IMG/VR virus record: IMGVR_UViG_3300045944_000182
Coordinates: 1-24,174 of that record
Length of the DNA stretch: 24,174 nt
Reading direction: 5' to 3' (one strand)
Source of the DNA: a virus
The notes beneath the pieces are model-generated. The model made no database searches. It was not told the origin of the DNA and saw only the letters and a program-made list of their open reading frames with translations. Made by a program: the position numbers and the translations under genes. Below are positions 11,788 through 21,609 of the stretch, piece after piece (the stretch's first letter is position 1; each line of letters begins with the position of its first letter).

Positions 11788-12215
11788 GGTTCGGTCTCCT
11801 TTGGAATTGGCACCACCTCGGCGCCGTGCCGGACAAGGTGGCGATAGAGTTGGCGGGGCAGCAACGCACTAGGGGCATGGATGCCGAGCAGCGCCTTGAC
11901 CGCGCCCGTGCAGCTCGCCACCACCGGGCAGTAATAGCGCCGCCGTCTGGAATGCACGCGGAGCACGCCGCCCGCCTGGTCGAGCCAGTGCCCGAGCAGC
12001 ACGTCGGCCTCGACCCCCTCCAGCACGAAGATCCCGGTCGCGGTGGTGGACGGGTCGAAGAACACCCAGCGCTCGGCCGCCGAGAAATAGCCCGCCGCCG
12101 AGACGTGCCGGAAGCCCGGCGGGAGCGCATATTCCATTAGGCGGTATGGCGTGCGATGCCGGAAAAAGACGAGCCACGGCCGCTCGATCTGGAAGTAATG
12201 CTGGTTGATCACCAT
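11739..12215 (-). CDS. Hypothetical phage protein between terminase and portal (158 aa)
   Basis: 158 aa, beginning MVINQHYFQIERPWLVFFRHRTPYRLMEYALPPGFRHVSAAG. A central segment (FVLEGVEADVLLGHWLDQAGGVLRV) is followed by SRRRRYYCPVVASCTGAVKALLGI and a Leu/Arg-rich helix. The start was set at the ATG at 12213-12215, overlapping the terminase end by 7 bp. Proteins of this type lie between terminase and portal genes in many phages of Proteobacteria and remain unassigned. The Cys pair (YYCPVVASC) resembles the catalytic region of NlpC/P60-like or papain-like thiol proteins, but without a clear His/Asp this is not enough to claim an enzyme. The last 49 bp overlap the next gene. Confidence 0.78.
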   Translation of the reverse strand: MVINQHYFQIERPWLVFFRHRTPYRLMEYALPPGFRHVSAAGYFSAAERWVFFDPSTTATGIFVLEGVEADVLLGHWLDQAGGVLRVHSRRRRYYCPVVASCTGAVKALLGIHAPSALLPRQLYRHLVRHGAEVVPIPKETEPWAGYSAAAAAPTGTR

Positions 12216-13711
12216 CCCCGCACCGCCGGGCGCCGCGTCTCCTTCCACGGGTTGAACGGCCGCTTGGTCTGCACCGGCCTGGCCGGTTCGGCGGATCCGC
12301 GCAGCAGCACGCGGCCCTCGCCGCCGCCCAGCAGCAGGTAGCCGCAGGCATCAGCCGGGTCGCTATAGTGGTCCTTCTCAGCTTCATCGGCGTAGCGCTC
12401 GCCCATCACCTTGAGCCGCCGGAACCGCCAGCCGCCGTCCAGCGCCGCGATCAGCATCGCGCACGACGGCGACACCGAAAACGCCGGGCGCCCCTCGGTC
12501 ATCCGCGTCACCACCGCCTCCATCGCCTGCAGCCGCACCGTGAACAGAATGCTCGGCGCCTCGAGGATCGGCAGGCGGTGCTTGCGGAAGATCTGGAACG
12601 GGGTCTGCTGGTCGTTCTGGCCCGGATAGTCGCCGGACGGGTCGCCCCAGATCTTGAACTGGAAGCCGGGGAACTTCTGCGCGATCTCGTTCTTCAGCCG
12701 CGGCGCGAACTGGTCCGCCCCCATGTCGCGCGAAATGAGTTCGTGGATGATGGTCCAGGCGCCGCGCACGTACTGGCCGAAGATGGCGCACGGCCGCCGG
12801 CCGAAATCGCAGCCGATCAGGATGTCGACGCCCGGCATCGGCTCGATCGGCTTTGCCGCCACATGGGCCTTCCTGTTGAAGTCGCGCAGCACCGGCTTGC
12901 CGTCGCGCCGCGCCGACACGCGGTTCAGGACGTTGGCGTCGATCCACGCCTTGGTCTTGCCCTGCGTGGCGTTGAGGTAATACTGCGGCCCGCCCGGCAG
13001 GAACTTGAGGTTCTCGGCCTCCGGGTTCGGCTCGTAGCGCACATCCTCGCCGTCTTTTAATTCGATCAGCCCCGGCGGCTGCACGTAGAACTCCCAGTTC
13101 TCCGGCTGCTTGTGCGCCCGCCGCTGGTCCTCGGAGAACCAGTCCGGCACCGCCACATCCTTGCGCATGATCGGCACCCAATGGTGCTCGTCCGGCGCGT
13201 TCATGTCGGCGATCACCTGCGGCATCACCGCGCCGCCGTCGATCGCCCGCGGATACCTGCCGACCCGCGTCACCGCCTCGTCGAACAGCGGCCGGTCCAT
13301 GAACTGCAATTCGTTGAACCAGCAGATCGTGGTCTCCAATGACCGGAAGTAGTCGACCGAGCGATCGTCCTCCAGCGCGACGAAATGCACGTCGAACCGG
13401 ATGTTGCCGATCCGCATCTCGTGCAGCATGGGCTTCGACCAGTAGAAGCGTCCGAACTCGGCTTCCGGAAACCACTCCAGCCAGGTCTTGAGCGTGGTGT
13501 CCTCGAGCTTGTTGTAGGTGTCGCGGAACACGTGCGCGCGGCCGTACCGGCAGCCGTCGCTCCGCACCACCTGCTGCAGCGCCTTCATCCACAAATTCAT
13601 CGCGCAGGCCAGGGTCTTGCCCGACCCGATCGGCCCCTGGATGATCTTGACCAGCGCCGACGACGACATGAACGCGCGCAGCACCTCGCCGTCCGGCTTG
13701 AACTGCTTCAT
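12209..13711 (-). CDS. Terminase large subunit
   Basis: 500 aa DNA-packaging motor. The N-terminal ATPase has Walker A GPIGSGKT at 26-33 and a Walker-B-like ICWFNE at 129-134. The C-terminal nuclease domain shows the expected acidic positions: GCDFG (Asp302), WGDPSGD (Asp357/Asp361) and DPADACGYL (Asp454). In phages this protein cuts concatemeric DNA and pumps it through the portal. The ATG at 13709-13711 gives a start close to the ATPase domain, as expected. It lies after a 41-aa gene and before the 158-aa gene. The family is certain; the packaging type (cos or headful) cannot be told from this protein alone. Confidence 0.93.
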   Translation of the reverse strand: MKQFKPDGEVLRAFMSSSALVKIIQGPIGSGKTLACAMNLWMKALQQVVRSDGCRYGRAHVFRDTYNKLEDTTLKTWLEWFPEAEFGRFYWSKPMLHEMRIGNIRFDVHFVALEDDRSVDYFRSLETTICWFNELQFMDRPLFDEAVTRVGRYPRAIDGGAVMPQVIADMNAPDEHHWVPIMRKDVAVPDWFSEDQRRAHKQPENWEFYVQPPGLIELKDGEDVRYEPNPEAENLKFLPGGPQYYLNATQGKTKAWIDANVLNRVSARRDGKPVLRDFNRKAHVAAKPIEPMPGVDILIGCDFGRRPCAIFGQYVRGAWTIIHELISRDMGADQFAPRLKNEIAQKFPGFQFKIWGDPSGDYPGQNDQQTPFQIFRKHRLPILEAPSILFTVRLQAMEAVVTRMTEGRPAFSVSPSCAMLIAALDGGWRFRRLKVMGERYADEAEKDHYSDPADACGYLLLGGGEGRVLLRGSAEPARPVQTKRPFNPWKETRRPAVRGW

Positions 13712-14925: not shown

Positions 14926-15366
14926 TCATTGGCTATCGTTCTCAATGGCGGGCTTTGGCGTTTCGCGCGGTCCCGCAAGGTCGATGACATAGCCGACCGA
15001 AACACCAACATTCACAGCGACTTGGCCACGTTCCTGCGGCGCAATGCCGTCAAGGGCTAGGACGTGCTTACTCGCATCAAGTGCCACGTGACCGCTGTCT
15101 GCATCGATCAATTCCACAACACGCGCCGACGCTCGCAATGTGCCTAACGTAAGGGTTTCGCGTGCTTTGCGCGCGATAAACTCCTGTATTTGAGGTTTCC
15201 TCAATTCACGGGATAGGTGGCTTTCGTTCATGCCTGCGAGGCGTGCGGCCTCACGCTGCGTAACGCCTTTGGTAGCGAGATTGATCAGGACTTGCCGCAT
15301 TCGGCGGGAAATGGCTCGCGGCTTGCGTTGTTTGTGCGTGTTTGCGTCTGGAATTGCCGGAAGCAT
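14926..15366 (-). CDS. Probable terminase small subunit (HTH)
   Basis: 146 aa. A basic N-terminus (NTHKQRKPRAISRRMRQVLINL) leads into a helix-turn-helix: GVTQREAARLAGMNESHLSRELRKPQIQEFI (about 34-64). A central helical segment follows (RETLTLGTLRASARVVELIDAD, then ALDASKHVLALDGIAP), and the protein ends in a beta-type VGVSVGYVIDLAGP. HTH, central oligomerisation helices and a C-terminal segment ending in YVIDL are typical of small terminases of phages from rhizobia, which recognise the packaging site. It is the first gene of the late module, before the tiny basic genes and the large terminase. The ATG at 15364-15366 has a weak SD. A transcriptional regulator is the alternative. Confidence 0.7.
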   Translation of the reverse strand: MLPAIPDANTHKQRKPRAISRRMRQVLINLATKGVTQREAARLAGMNESHLSRELRKPQIQEFIARKARETLTLGTLRASARVVELIDADSGHVALDASKHVLALDGIAPQERGQVAVNVGVSVGYVIDLAGPRETPKPAIENDSQ

Positions 15367-15994: not shown

Positions 15995-16129
15995 CAACGC
16001 ACGGGTTTAAGCCGCTGAACCATACGCCTTTTGTTCGTAACAATTCGTGAATGGACGCCATGCGCACTTTATGCGTATGTTGCAATTGTCGCCCTGGTGA
16101 CACGGGGCATTGAACCGAGAGGACTTCAC
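15995..16129. promoter_or_regulatory. Divergent control region between the 178-aa gene and the ardC-like gene
   Basis: Contains an inverted repeat TTGTT-CGT-AACAA (16031-16043), two direct copies of TTCGTrA one helical turn apart (16034-16040, 16044-16050), and a widely spaced inverted pair CATACGC/GCGTATG (16021-16027/16073-16079). These are reasonable operator-type elements for one or both divergent genes. I could not place a convincing -35/-10 pair. Confidence 0.4.
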
Positions 16130-17014
16130 ATGAAACGCGATCTTTATGCCGAGATTACCGACCGGCTGATTGCCAAGCTTGAGGCCGGGACTGTGCCGTG
16201 GGTGCGGGGCTGGAACGCTGGAACTAGCGTGCCCATGAATGCGATTAGCAACCGCCCCTACAGCGGCATCAACGTCCTGCTGTTCTGGCTCTCAGCGGAC
16301 AAGGGCTATAGCTCACCGCGGTATCTGACGTTTAAGCAGGCCAAGCAGGCCGGCGGAACCGTGCGGGCTGGCGAGAAATCGACCCGGATTGTGTACTTCA
16401 AGCAATTGGAAGTGCGGGACCGCAGCGAACCGAGCAACAGCGAGGACGCCGTTAAGCGGATCCCGATGCTGAAAGAATATTACGTTTTTAACGTCGACCA
16501 ATGCGACGGCTTGCCCGAGCATGTCCGCCGCGGCCCCGATGCCGGCCGCATCAACCCCGACACCCGCGAGGCTTTGGCTGACGACTTCATTAAGGCGAGC
16601 GGCGCCGACTTTCGCGAGGGCGCCGGCCGTCCCTGCTACATCCCCTCCAAGGACTTCATTACCGTGCCGGCCTGGTCAGACTTTCACAGCCTGCCCGAGT
16701 ATTACGCCGCGGCGTTCCATGAGTTGGTTCACTGGACGGGGCACAAGTCGCGCCTCGATCGCGACCTCAAGGGCCGTTTCGATACCGACTCCTACGCCGC
16801 TGAGGAACTTGTGGCCGAGCTTGGCGCCGCGTTCCTTTGCGCCGAGTTTGGTTTTGACAACGCGCACGACAACCAAGCGGCCTATTTGGACGGGTGGCTC
16901 AAGGTGTTGAAAGCGGACAAACGCGCGATTTTCACTTGTGCGTCGAAAGCCCAAAAAGCCGCCGATTATCTCCGCGGCCGTGCGATCGCGGAACCGGAAG
17001 CCCTAGCAGCGTAA
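16130..17014 (+). CDS. ardC: ArdC-like antirestriction protein (ssDNA-binding domain plus zincin domain)
   Basis: 294 aa. The N-terminal domain (MKRDLYAEITDRLIAKLEAGTVPWVRGW, then PYSGINVLLFWLSADKGY and YLTFKQAKQAGGTVRAGEKS) is the DUF1738/ArdC N-terminal ssDNA-binding fold. The C-terminal zincin domain has HELVHWTGHKSRLDRD with H197-E198-L-V-H201 as the HExxH zinc site, and a downstream YAAEELVAELGAAFL with glutamates at 225/226 and 230 that can supply the third ligand. Family members protect incoming DNA from host restriction. The start has a good SD (GAGAGGA). This plus-strand gene interrupts two minus-strand modules, which points to separate acquisition and regulation. A polyvalent-protein-type metallopeptidase with another target is the alternative. 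Confidence 0.87.
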   Translation: MKRDLYAEITDRLIAKLEAGTVPWVRGWNAGTSVPMNAISNRPYSGINVLLFWLSADKGYSSPRYLTFKQAKQAGGTVRAGEKSTRIVYFKQLEVRDRSEPSNSEDAVKRIPMLKEYYVFNVDQCDGLPEHVRRGPDAGRINPDTREALADDFIKASGADFREGAGRPCYIPSKDFITVPAWSDFHSLPEYYAAAFHELVHWTGHKSRLDRDLKGRFDTDSYAAEELVAELGAAFLCAEFGFDNAHDNQAAYLDGWLKVLKADKRAIFTCASKAQKAADYLRGRAIAEPEALAA

Positions 17015-18051: not shown

Positions 18052-18638
18052 CAGAACGGCACCCCCTCCTCCTCGTCTTTGACCATGGCTTTGGGCTGCG
18101 GGTAGAGCTCGCGGAGCTGGGCGTCTGTAAAGGTCGTGAACGATGTCCTGGCCGCCCGCGGCGCGTCGATCAGCCAAGGGTAAGGCACCCAGATCCCGGT
18201 CTTGCCGTTGAAAGAATCGGTCCGCCAGTCGGCCGGATCCGCCGTCTTGCAACGCTCAACCATGGCCGGATATTGCGGCACGCCGACCGGCACAAAGACG
18301 TTGCCGCGCCGACCCGGCAGTTTCGGCCCCTCGATGCGTGGGACGGGCTTGCGGGCACCGAGCTGCTGATACCGCTCAGCCCGCGCCGCCTCGTCCTCGC
18401 ACGCTTGCTTGACGTCAGCCACATCGGGCAGGCCGGTCCAGCCGCTCTCGCTCTTTCGGGACGGCAGGCCGGAGAACGGATCGGTGACAGTCTTGACCAC
18501 CTCGGCGCTGTACCGGGATAAGACCATGGAGACGGCGGCAACGTAGGTGTCGGGATCGTTGGCATCACCTCGGCGGTAGCACCCGAACATCAGTTGCGCC
18601 CGTTCCATCGCGTAGCTCGCCGAGCAGGTCTCGTTCAT
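18051..18638 (-). CDS. Replication-associated phage protein (195 aa)
   Basis: 195 aa. The N-terminus ASYAMERAQLMFGCYRRGDANDPDTYVAAVSMVLSRYSAEVV, then VTDPFSGLPSRK and LPDVADVKQACEDEA, matches a helical domain that often follows O-like initiators in phages of alphaproteobacteria. The C-terminus is Pro-rich with an acidic tail EEEGVPF. It overlaps the initiator gene by 74 bp, so the two are translated in close coupling. It has no Walker motif, so it is not itself a helicase or an AAA-type loader. A helicase-recruiting role like lambda P is attractive but inferred only from position. A strong SD (GGGAGAGGGG) precedes the ATG. Confidence 0.75.
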   Translation of the reverse strand: MNETCSASYAMERAQLMFGCYRRGDANDPDTYVAAVSMVLSRYSAEVVKTVTDPFSGLPSRKSESGWTGLPDVADVKQACEDEAARAERYQQLGARKPVPRIEGPKLPGRRGNVFVPVGVPQYPAMVERCKTADPADWRTDSFNGKTGIWVPYPWLIDAPRAARTSFTTFTDAQLRELYPQPKAMVKDEEEGVPF

Positions 18639-19392
18639 CGCCCCTCTCCCACATGGCTTGTTTTTCGCGCAGCCGCCGGATTGCGCTGTGGACTGACTTG
18701 TCCTCCGGTCCGACGCGCTGGCGCGGCTGTAACGTGCGGTTTATCCACGCCACCGGATCGGCCACCCGGTTATGATCAGCCTCCTCGATCGCGCCGAGAA
18801 CATGGATGGCTTCGTCATCGACGGTTTTGAGCCATCGGCCGATCAGTGATCGACATGAGTTTGGTGTTTTGCCGGTAATTCTGGCGAGTGTTACGAGTCC
18901 GCGTCGGAACAATTCGGTTCGGACGTCGGGAGACGCGCTCGCGTCAGAAGCTTTAGCTTCTGAATCTTCTTCCTTGCTTTCCTTGTATTCTACTTTGTCT
19001 CGCTGCTGTCTCGCTTCTGTCCCTGTTGCTGTCCTTGTTGCTGTCTCGTCTGGAAGTGATACGCGCTGATATTTATTGTAATTACATATCGTTATGATGG
19101 TGATGCCTGTCTCGATTGTTGTCCCTACCATTGTCTCGGTTTTTAGCTTGTCCAGAAAACGCTCGACCTTGGCGCGATGCCAGCGCCATCGCACAGCCAG
19201 AAATCGGATTGAGGCGGCAAGCTGCCCGCGCCTCAACTCGACTTGTAGATTTCCCACACGGCGACGATGTGCTTTCCATGCCGCTTCGGCGATTAGCCAA
19301 GTCCATGCCTCACGTTGGGTAAACGGCTCGCGGGGGAATGCAGGGTGATCGAAAACCCCACGGTCGACCGCAAAGACGCCGCGCTCGCTCAT
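18565..19392 (-). CDS. Replication initiator (O/DnaD-like) with winged-helix N-terminus
   Basis: 275 aa. Residues 1-110 form a phage replisome-organiser winged helix: FTQREAWTWLIAEAAWKAH (24-42), LAVRWRWHRAKVERFLDKLKTE (65-86) and the wing TIITICNYNKY (98-108). A hydrophilic linker follows (115-155, Thr/Ala/Glu/Asp/Ser-rich). The C-terminal domain is RTELFRRGLVTLARITGKTP and WLKTVDDEAIHVLGAIEEADHNRVADPVAWINRTL. Such proteins bind origin repeats and recruit the helicase machinery. The DNA for residues 85-133 carries eight iteron-like repeats and an AT-rich core. The start was set by the ATGA overlap with the GIY-YIG gene; a longer start is less likely. Confidence 0.85.
   Translation of the reverse strand: MSERGVFAVDRGVFDHPAFPREPFTQREAWTWLIAEAAWKAHRRRVGNLQVELRRGQLAASIRFLAVRWRWHRAKVERFLDKLKTETMVGTTIETGITIITICNYNKYQRVSLPDETATRTATGTEARQQRDKVEYKESKEEDSEAKASDASASPDVRTELFRRGLVTLARITGKTPNSCRSLIGRWLKTVDDEAIHVLGAIEEADHNRVADPVAWINRTLQPRQRVGPEDKSVHSAIRRLREKQAMWERGDERDLLGELRDGTGATDVRVLPPR
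18995..19138. other. Iteron-like repeats with AT-rich core: candidate replication origin
   Basis: Eight copies of a CTGTCTCG-like 8-mer occur on the plus strand. Five are at 18995, 19006, 19017, 19029 and 19041; three are at 19107, 19119 and 19131. Spacing inside each cluster is 11-12 bp. Exact CTGTCTCG is at 19006, 19041 and 19107; TTGTCTCG is at 18995 and 19131; the others read YTGTCCYT. Between the clusters, 19065-19100 is AT-rich (gatatttattgtaattac). Because some spacings are 11 bp, not a multiple of three, the pattern is not simply a repeated peptide. This resembles lambda ori inside gene O. Confidence 0.68.
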
Positions 19393-19766
19393 CCCCGTGT
19401 TTCCTGAAACCAAGATTCATGATCTAGGCCGGTTTCAATCAGTTCGATGGCAAGTTCGGCGTCGATGTCAAACCACTCGCCGTTTAATCGCTTCTCCTCA
19501 TAGACCGCATGAAAATCAGCCTCATGTTGAAGGGCATGGGCGCGGCTCAGCATTGGCTCGGCGTGAAGCAACTCAACATGAAATGGGCATCCGGTTCGAA
19601 TCTGACCTAGCCTCGACTGGGGATTACTCGTCACGCCAACTTTCACTGGCCCATCTTGTCGGCCAATAACGTAGATAAAATTATTGTTGCGTGCCTTGGC
19701 GATGGCCTTGGTTGTGGCAAGACGCACACTGGCGCGTGCTAGCAACTCTGGTGTGACTCTACTCAT
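19389..19766 (-). CDS. GIY-YIG-type nuclease (MUG113/T5orf172-like)
   Basis: 125 aa. The motif FIYVIG at 30-35, followed by VKVGVT at 41-46 and SRLGQIRTGCP at 51-61, is the GIY-YIG core as found in MUG113/T5orf172 proteins. Conserved later elements are HEADFHAVYEEKR (81-93) and NGEWFDI (95-101); the Glu and Asn/Gly in these positions are the usual catalytic set. Substrate and target are unknown for this subgroup. The start was set by ATGA overlap with the methyltransferase gene; longer N-terminal extensions would read inside it. It is coupled to the initiator gene downstream, suggesting work on DNA in the early phase. Confidence 0.82.
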   Translation of the reverse strand: MSRVTPELLARASVRLATTKAIAKARNNNFIYVIGRQDGPVKVGVTSNPQSRLGQIRTGCPFHVELLHAEPMLSRAHALQHEADFHAVYEEKRLNGEWFDIDAELAIELIETGLDHESWFQETRG

Positions 19767-20326
19767 GCCGCCACCCACGTCAGCCGCCGCAGCTCGGTCG
19801 GTCGGTTGTAGTGGTTGCGATCCCAGACGAACCACGCGAACGGCACGGCGCTGCTCGAGCGCGGCCCCTGCCAGCCATGGCGGTGCATCATCGGCAGGCG
19901 GTTGCGGAAAACGTACACGCGGGCGAGCTGCCCGTTGTCGAGAATAGACGTGCGCCGCTCGCTTTCAAGGAAGGCCAGACGCAGCAGCATGACGACCTTG
20001 GGCGAGAGCGTCAGCGCGTGTTCCACGAACGCGGCGGCGAGCTTGAACGGCGGGTTGGTCACGATGGCAGGGAAGCCGGGTGCCCACTCCATTAGGAAGT
20101 CGACGCCGGACTCGCTGTCGGGACAACCATGGTCGACCAGGTCGGTCGCATGGACCTCATGACCGGCGGCGCGCAGCACGTTGACGATGCTGCCGGGACC
20201 GCAGGCTGGTTCCCAGATATGGTGTGGCAGCTTCTCGACCCGCAGCAATGCCTCGACCGCCACCTCGGGCGTCTCATAGAGATCGTCCTTGCGGTCGGCG
20301 AGTGCGTGCGCCTGTGCCGAGATCAT
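19763..20326 (-). CDS. Phage N6-adenine DNA methyltransferase (Dam-like)
   Basis: 187 aa. An N-terminal YETPEVAVEALLRV (17-30) is usual for phage adenine methyltransferases. The SAM-binding motif I is WEPACGPGSI (38-47), motif II-like is HATDLVDHG (59-67), and the catalytic motif IV is NPPF (91-94). A late FAWFVWDRN (163-171) is also common in the group. NPPF predicts N6-adenine methylation. No separate recognition domain is large enough to predict the target. It starts at an ATG overlapping the upstream stop (20323-20326). Its likely jobs are protection from restriction or control of replication/packaging. Confidence 0.85.
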   Translation of the reverse strand: MISAQAHALADRKDDLYETPEVAVEALLRVEKLPHHIWEPACGPGSIVNVLRAAGHEVHATDLVDHGCPDSESGVDFLMEWAPGFPAIVTNPPFKLAAAFVEHALTLSPKVVMLLRLAFLESERRTSILDNGQLARVYVFRNRLPMMHRHGWQGPRSSSAVPFAWFVWDRNHYNRPTELRRLTWVAA

Positions 20327-21237: not shown

Positions 21238-21609
21238 CTAGGATACGGTGCCCCTCAACAACCCATGTTCCTTGAGCCAGTGCAGCGCGGCGTCGAGACC
21301 ACGCGCGACGTGACAGATCACACCGACCGCTTCCATCTTCTTCATGGTCGCGATCTGCTCGTCGGACACGGTGGCCTTCTTGCTGGTGGTCTTGAGTTCG
21401 AGCGCAAACACCTGGCCGGGCCGGATCACGATGACGTCTGGAATGCCGGACACGACGCCGAGACCGGCGTTGATGCCGCGGCGGCGGCCGCGCTGATGGA
21501 TGCCGCCGTTCTTCGGATGGAACGCAAACACGCCGGGCGCTGCGTGCTGGCGCAGATTGTCGAACACGGCGCGCTGGATCTGGTTCTCGCTGAGCGGGAT
21601 CGCCTGCAT
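21238..21609 (-). CDS. VRR-NUC domain nuclease
   Basis: 123 aa. The VRR-NUC signatures are all present: SENQIQRAVFDNL (7-19, Glu8), FHPKNGG (30-36), the metal-binding GIPDVIVI (55-62, Asp58), the ELK triplet FALELKTT (68-75, Glu71 and Lys73) and SDEQ (82-85). The length is that of a stand-alone phage VRR-NUC. Proteins of this type are structure-specific endonucleases (Holliday-junction-resolvase-like). It probably helps process replication or recombination intermediates. It starts 2 bp after the GapR-like gene. Confidence 0.87.
   Translation of the reverse strand: MQAIPLSENQIQRAVFDNLRQHAAPGVFAFHPKNGGIHQRGRRRGINAGLGVVSGIPDVIVIRPGQVFALELKTTSKKATVSDEQIATMKKMEAVGVICHVARGLDAALHWLKEHGLLRGTVS

Follow-up and report, generated by a model that had tools for sequence, protein, structure and literature searches.

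Within the coding region of a DnaD-like phage replication initiator gene lies an array of eight short repeats that is very probably bound by the initiator which the same gene encodes, and that most likely serves as the origin of replication. The gene belongs to IMG/VR record IMGVR_UViG_3300045944_000182, 24,174 bases of virus DNA, which were analysed at full length and are called the window here. An iteron-type origin inside this gene had been proposed from the letters of the window alone (the original prediction), and the comparison with homologues reported below supports that proposal: the spacing of the repeats recurs throughout the family, and their letters covary with residues of the predicted recognition helix of the initiator.

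The array consists of eight sites of the type G(A/G)GACA on the minus strand, seven exact and one with a single mismatch, with a coding-strand consensus of CGAGACA (7 base pairs, bp). It begins about 255 bp past the start codon and runs from 19138 down to 18996 in successive steps of 12, 12, 66, 12, 12, 11 and 11 bp, confirming the two groups of five and three copies, 11–12 bp apart, that had been described. All seven exact hexamers of the gene fall in the array, and the whole window has 10 on its minus strand and 3 on its plus strand. When the protein was held fixed, none of 20,000 synonymous recodings by the codon usage of the window reached seven sites (mean 0.6, maximum 4), nor did any of 20,000 sequences in which the synonymous codons of the gene were shuffled among themselves (mean 1.5, maximum 6). 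The repeats are real, and chance is excluded as their source with the protein so fixed. The placement of the repeats in the linker-coding part of the gene was right for group 2, whose stretch from residue 123 on (counted from the ATG) codes the low-confidence linker of an AlphaFold2 model, but not for group 1, whose copies fall where the wing of the winged helix is encoded.

Homologues came from three sets that overlap: viral contigs supplied 15 loci, an alignment search of that collection contributed its best 80 of 108, and genome contigs yielded 28. The 124 loci gave 123 anchored ones, the window's own copy (L016) being left out, and 122 after removal of L015, which was too short; the non-redundant set comprised 92 of these at no more than 75% identity. 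Because two of the search patterns (alignment search and genome contigs) contain the ICNY core, the conservation of the core is partly a selection effect. An array score of 3.9, which codon shuffles reach in 2.5% of cases on average, was attained by 81 of the 92 homologues. Of the 92, 80 had a repeat score above that of every one of 40 codon shuffles of their own stretch, as did 79 of the 81 at array score. In 77 of the 81, copies flanked the conserved ICNYxKYQ codons on either side. The dominant steps were 11 bp (169 occurrences) and 12 bp (157), and the most frequent gap between the groups was 66 bp (30 of 77 loci), with gaps clustering modulo 11 (Rayleigh R 0.78). The letters of the repeat vary by lineage: counted from the IIT codons, copies return at −40, −28, −16, 50, 62, 74, 85 and 96 although their letters are wholly different.

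These data bear directly on whether the repeats could be the by-product of a functional repeated peptide (E/G-T every four residues), such as a linker contacting the helicase. Six of the eight copies in the window do share one codon frame, and the wing copies keep to a single frame in 30 of the 57 loci that have two or more of them. However, the last two copies of the window occupy the two other frames, one each, and the synonymous nulls do not yield the array. Across the family 68 of 81 loci have exact copies in at least two frames, and 47 have them in all three; linker copies alone occupy all three in 61 of 79, with steps of 11 bp (153) outnumbering those of 12 bp (109). The encoded peptides also vary among homologues while the spacing stays constant. 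Conserved amino acids thus do not account for the repeats, as the original prediction had held in arguing that their regularity was not merely that of a peptide; on codon frames and synonymous nulls, a peptide source was rejected as highly improbable.

In many related phages part of the array also encodes the predicted DNA-gripping wing of the initiator. The 60 nucleotides coding for the wing match the downstream linker of their own gene better than the linkers of other homologues (best 12-mer 10.5 versus 9.1, n = 92; Wilcoxon P 3e-16), and the match lies above the locus's own swapped mean in 87 of the 92 loci. Controls gave 9.4 for codon-shuffled linkers, 8.7 for other stretches of the same gene and 8.4 for the reverse strand. 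In 50 of 80 loci the wing contained an exact copy of the best 7-mer of its own linker; 4.2 such loci were expected. In the wing the balance of steps is the reverse of that in the linker, with 48 of 12 bp and 16 of 11 bp.

The N-terminal domain has a winged-helix fold in the AlphaFold2 model, in helix-helix-strand-strand order, with confidence scores (predicted local distance difference test) mostly above 90; the helix-turn-helix has residue 63 in its first helix and residues 73–78 in the recognition helix, and residues 89–94 and 97–102 form the wing strands. The closest solved folds were CAP-type winged helices, the CAP DNA-binding domain 1zrf giving a middling Z of 8.1 (root-mean-square deviation, rmsd, 2.6 over 77 aligned residues). 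Foldseek returned no structure match for the domain at E 0.001 or better, and a profile of the domain found only weak matches among the sequences of solved structures (best E 0.027). Among the structure matches listed, no RepA_N structure or DnaD stood out, which excludes neither; the DnaD-containing model 9a5c stood in row 50, with an rmsd of 16.7.

For the 75 of 92 loci with a score of at least 4.2, iteron letters were aligned and compared with the columns of the protein. The wing is itself encoded by the repeats, and outside it the strongest links were those of residues 77 (Z 12.7) and 73 (Z 11.0) with the middle base of the iteron; residues 63, 78, 77 and 73 took the top four places among 558 residue-base tests. 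At 45–60% background identity the middle base agreed in 97% of the pairs that share a residue-77 class and in 13% of those that do not, the corresponding figures being 75% and 21% at 35–45% identity and 61% and 19% at 20–35%. Disjoint nearest pairs gave the same picture (19 of 21 agreeing with the same class versus 4 of 12 with different classes, P 0.001), and residue 75 showed no link to the middle base in the two lower identity bands. With VRR at residues 76–78 the iteron is exactly CGACGCA in 14 of 24 loci; VDR (9 loci) goes with CGGGACA in 5 and CGGGGCA in 2, VER (11 loci) with CCGGACA in 3 and CGGGACA in 2, VQR with CGATAC(A/G) in both of its loci and VAR with CGCGACA in both of its own. 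This covariation makes the protein itself the probable reader of the repeats. In-gene repeat arrays are also known for packaging sites, and on that ground the array might serve packaging or recombination instead of the initiator; yet its letters track the recognition helix of the protein that this same DNA encodes, and the large terminase gene and a weakly matched small-terminase gene lie kilobases away (Table 1), so a role of this kind is extremely improbable.

Two AT-rich (adenine plus thymine) tracts accompany the array. The core between the groups, a feature of the original prediction, is present, with an AT content of 0.725 over 40 bp from 19069 in the window and means of 0.71–0.74 against a baseline of 0.39 in the 56 homologues with a GC content above 55%. 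The ICNYxKYQ peptide accounts for part of its AT-richness, yet there is a synonymous AT bias as well: at third codon positions AT was 0.57 versus 0.43 expected (n = 92), and in this gene 0.625 versus 0.325 over 8 codons. Past the linker array a second tract has an AT content of 0.54–0.63 and a purine content of 0.60–0.78 in the family (n = 56), and an AT content of 0.60–0.70 in this gene. In sliding 11-codon windows (n = 92) the synonymous AT excess was largest here, 0.22 compared with 0.10 at the core. The second tract is the preferred candidate for the unwinding element, since the AT tract of lambda adjoins the iterons and the SPP1 origin has an AT-rich element; the higher raw AT of the core, in the window and in the family, speaks against this choice, and both tracts may matter.

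In the mechanism that we propose, the N-terminal winged-helix domain would read each 7-bp iteron, here CGAGACA. With roughly one site per helical turn (11 or 12 bp) and a gap of six 11-bp turns (66 bp), initiator molecules would line up along the same face of the DNA over some 143 bp. Melting of an AT-rich tract next to the array would follow, and a helicase or a helicase loader would be recruited through the C-terminal part of the initiator. Alternatively, the array could be an operator through which the initiator regulates its own gene, with the origin elsewhere, and it is true that the covariation speaks for probable reading of the repeats by the protein and not for what follows from it. 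However, the array sits well inside the coding region and adjoins AT-rich tracts with a synonymous AT bias, and in studied systems of similar layout such arrays serve as origins; we consider an operator unlikely. For the family as a whole, a replication array of this build suggests a further and more tentative reading, which we regard as possible but doubtful: the site would encode the DNA-contacting wing that helps to read it, so that site and reader would be locked together. The hairpin would hold the wing copies mostly to 12-bp (four-codon) steps and the linker copies would relax to 11 bp, and specificity would shift only if helix, wing and linker repeats changed together.

Several observations weigh against an origin read by its own initiator, or against its generality. 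The loci are related, and the P values are therefore optimistic. Eleven of the 92 loci fall short of the array score, and at least five of the eight canonical positions are present in only 23 of the 81 at array score; spacing is therefore better kept than exact places. The best wing-linker 12-mer of the window does not stand out from those obtained when the codons of its linker are shuffled (0.34), and that test taken alone reaches 0.05 in 31 of 92 loci only. The effects of residues 63 and 78 depend on few differing loci. A second, remoter sample had 246 loci, 178 anchored and 68 not, of which 40 were new after de-duplication; a first scan for distant relatives had given mostly near-identical loci, and among the members of the sample are named phages, PVL and pCB2047-A for example, that had been examined beforehand. 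These 40 homologues keep the 11-bp linker array, but wing sharing is weaker (10.1 versus 9.4, P 0.001, 28 of 40 above the swapped mean), exact 7-mers recur in the wing in 4 of 39 loci with 1.1 expected, and copies lie on both sides of the core in 21 of 31 array-score loci. Only 3 of these 31 arrays fitted the generic profile, too few to bear on the helix-iteron code. The GC-skew switch that had been looked to as a sign of an origin was absent at the array in 1,500-base windows. No clear partner helicase was seen among the window proteins scanned, a subset of the open reading frames; the product of 21238–21609 has a weak DNA-helicase match (phrog_2165, E 0.085) and fits resolvase families better.

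Individual homologues depart from the common layout in various ways. In L007 (4010–4897) the wing-core-linker segment appears to be tandemly duplicated within the initiator gene, with the ICNYNK core occurring twice in near-identical flanks. The array of L035 has moved upstream, with ACCCAGC copies at −60, −49, −38, −27 and −3 and then at 41 and 53, and the linker array of L105 is apparently split by a 65-bp step, with copies at 62 (one mismatch) and then 127 and 138. Three homologues (L118, L119 and L122) are from Aeromonas; L118, the sole one retained after de-duplication, has no array at the score used (2.0), and its origin may therefore lie elsewhere.

Origins inside initiator genes are already established, as published accounts of lambda, SPP1 and pSK41 describe. 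In lambda the origin is described as lying within the initiator gene O, with an AT-rich tract beside the iterons (PMC7466680). The likeness originally drawn to it stands insofar as the iterons lie mid-gene in an initiator gene, those of group 2 in an inter-domain linker (group 1 lies outside), and an AT-rich tract adjoins them; it does not extend to the iterons themselves, since the lambda record annotates four 18-bp iterons within O with starts 20–24 bp apart, whereas the present sites are of 7 bp and 11–12 bp apart. The same repeat scan found no wing group in lambda O. For gene 38 of SPP1, a replisome organiser, direct repeats and an AT-rich unwinding element are reported within the gene itself (oriL; PMC6316719), and on that published description it resembles the window gene in both respects. 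The N-terminal domain of the RepA_N initiator of pSK41 is reported to bind Rep boxes that lie midway along the gene encoding it, and its N- and C-terminal domains to resemble DnaD (PMC5703833). RepA_N iterons are described as semi-palindromic around a poly-A tract and not always discernible in the family (PMC7145576); the window differs in having, by inspection, short direct repeats, and neither its protein (E up to 1) nor ten homologue domains (E up to 0.1) matched RepA_N (PF06970) in Pfam. In 80alpha, ORF20 is reported not to be complemented in trans (PMC5499656), so that its origin probably lies inside the initiator gene, and the 80alpha record annotates a putative rep_origin inside the replisome-organiser gene; the same scan gave 15-bp-spaced repeats there and no comparable wing group.

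Two named phages are clear cases of such an arrangement. The orf46 of Staphylococcus phage PVL is a recognisable homologue with eight AACATCA copies, one of them with a mismatch, arranged as a single wing copy, a 68-bp gap and seven linker copies, one per 11 bp; it differs in repeat letters and host, and is annotated as a DnaD-like helicase loader with no origin marked in the stretch examined. SUAG_00025 of Sulfitobacter phage pCB2047-A has eight exact CGGGACA copies with steps of 11, 12, 66, 22, 11, 11 and 11 bp and an upstream T5orf172 gene; it is annotated as a hypothetical protein, likewise with no origin marked in the stretch examined. The TIGRFAM/Pfam entry for phage replisome organisers reportedly mentions low-complexity sequence that reflects origin repeats. 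As far as the titles and abstract openings listed in the literature searches show, iterons in the wing of a winged helix, a gap on the 11-bp lattice and a helix-iteron code are new, none of the three having been found there.

If the array is indeed the origin, origins would be readable from sequence alone for widespread prophage initiators, many of them alphaproteobacterial and with relatives in other phyla; the phage records listed among the relatives mostly name these proteins in general terms (hypothetical protein, DnaD-like helicase loader). A residue-to-base code, if true, would make origins and specificity classes directly predictable in many phage genomes. Both the iteron and the recognition helix vary from lineage to lineage, which makes the family a natural experiment in DNA reading by winged helices and in how the specificity of origin and initiator may change jointly when one stretch of DNA has to serve as both.

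Table 1. Positions of the array, its flanking tracts and the genes referred to, in window coordinates.
Feature	Position	Strand	Remarks
DnaD-like phage replication initiator gene	18565–19392	−	ATG at 19392, stop at 18565
Predicted recognition-helix codons	19138–19176	−	residues 73–85, AlphaFold2 model; residues 73, 77 and 78 covary with iteron bases
Iteron group 1	19108–19138	−	three copies, end of recognition helix through wing codons; steps 12 and 12
Copy CGAGACA	19132–19138	−	group 1
Copy AGGGACA	19120–19126	−	group 1
Copy CGAGACA	19108–19114	−	group 1
AT-rich core between groups	19066–19098	−	codons IITICNYNKYQ
Iteron group 2	18996–19048	−	five copies, linker codons, three codon frames; steps 12, 12, 11 and 11
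Copy CGAGACA	19042–19048	−	group 2
Copy AAGGACA	19030–19036	−	group 2; the imperfect copy
Copy AGGGACA	19018–19024	−	group 2
Copy CGAGACA	19007–19013	−	group 2
Copy CGAGACA	18996–19002	−	group 2
AT-rich, purine-rich tract, candidate DNA unwinding element	about 18955–18997	−	at and past the last iteron; overlaps last two bases of group 2
Large terminase gene	12209–13711		PHROG match
Small-terminase gene	14926–15366		weak match

On profile matches the product of the gene is a phage replication initiator with a predicted role in helicase loading. In a PHROG search its N-terminal part (residues 12–158) matched phrog_2514, a DnaD-like helicase loader, at E 4.7e-18, and the protein matched phrog_35955, to which no function is assigned, at E 3.2e-35. 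Phage_rep_org_N (PF09681) gave a weak match in one of ten homologue domains (best E 0.0068) and none in the window protein, and NCBIfam gave nothing useful for the ten domains. A longer alternative start is a TTG at 19413. The ATG overlaps the stop codon of an upstream T5orf172/MUG113 gene (19389–19835, minus strand), and Sulfitobacter phage pCB2047-A is annotated with this neighbour and overlap as well. The window also codes for a major head protein, a head-tail connector, the large terminase and an S24-peptidase/helix-turn-helix repressor, and an ArdC-type antirestriction protein (ArdcN and MPTase-PolyVal domains; 16031–17014, plus strand) is encoded in the opposite orientation to the replication genes.
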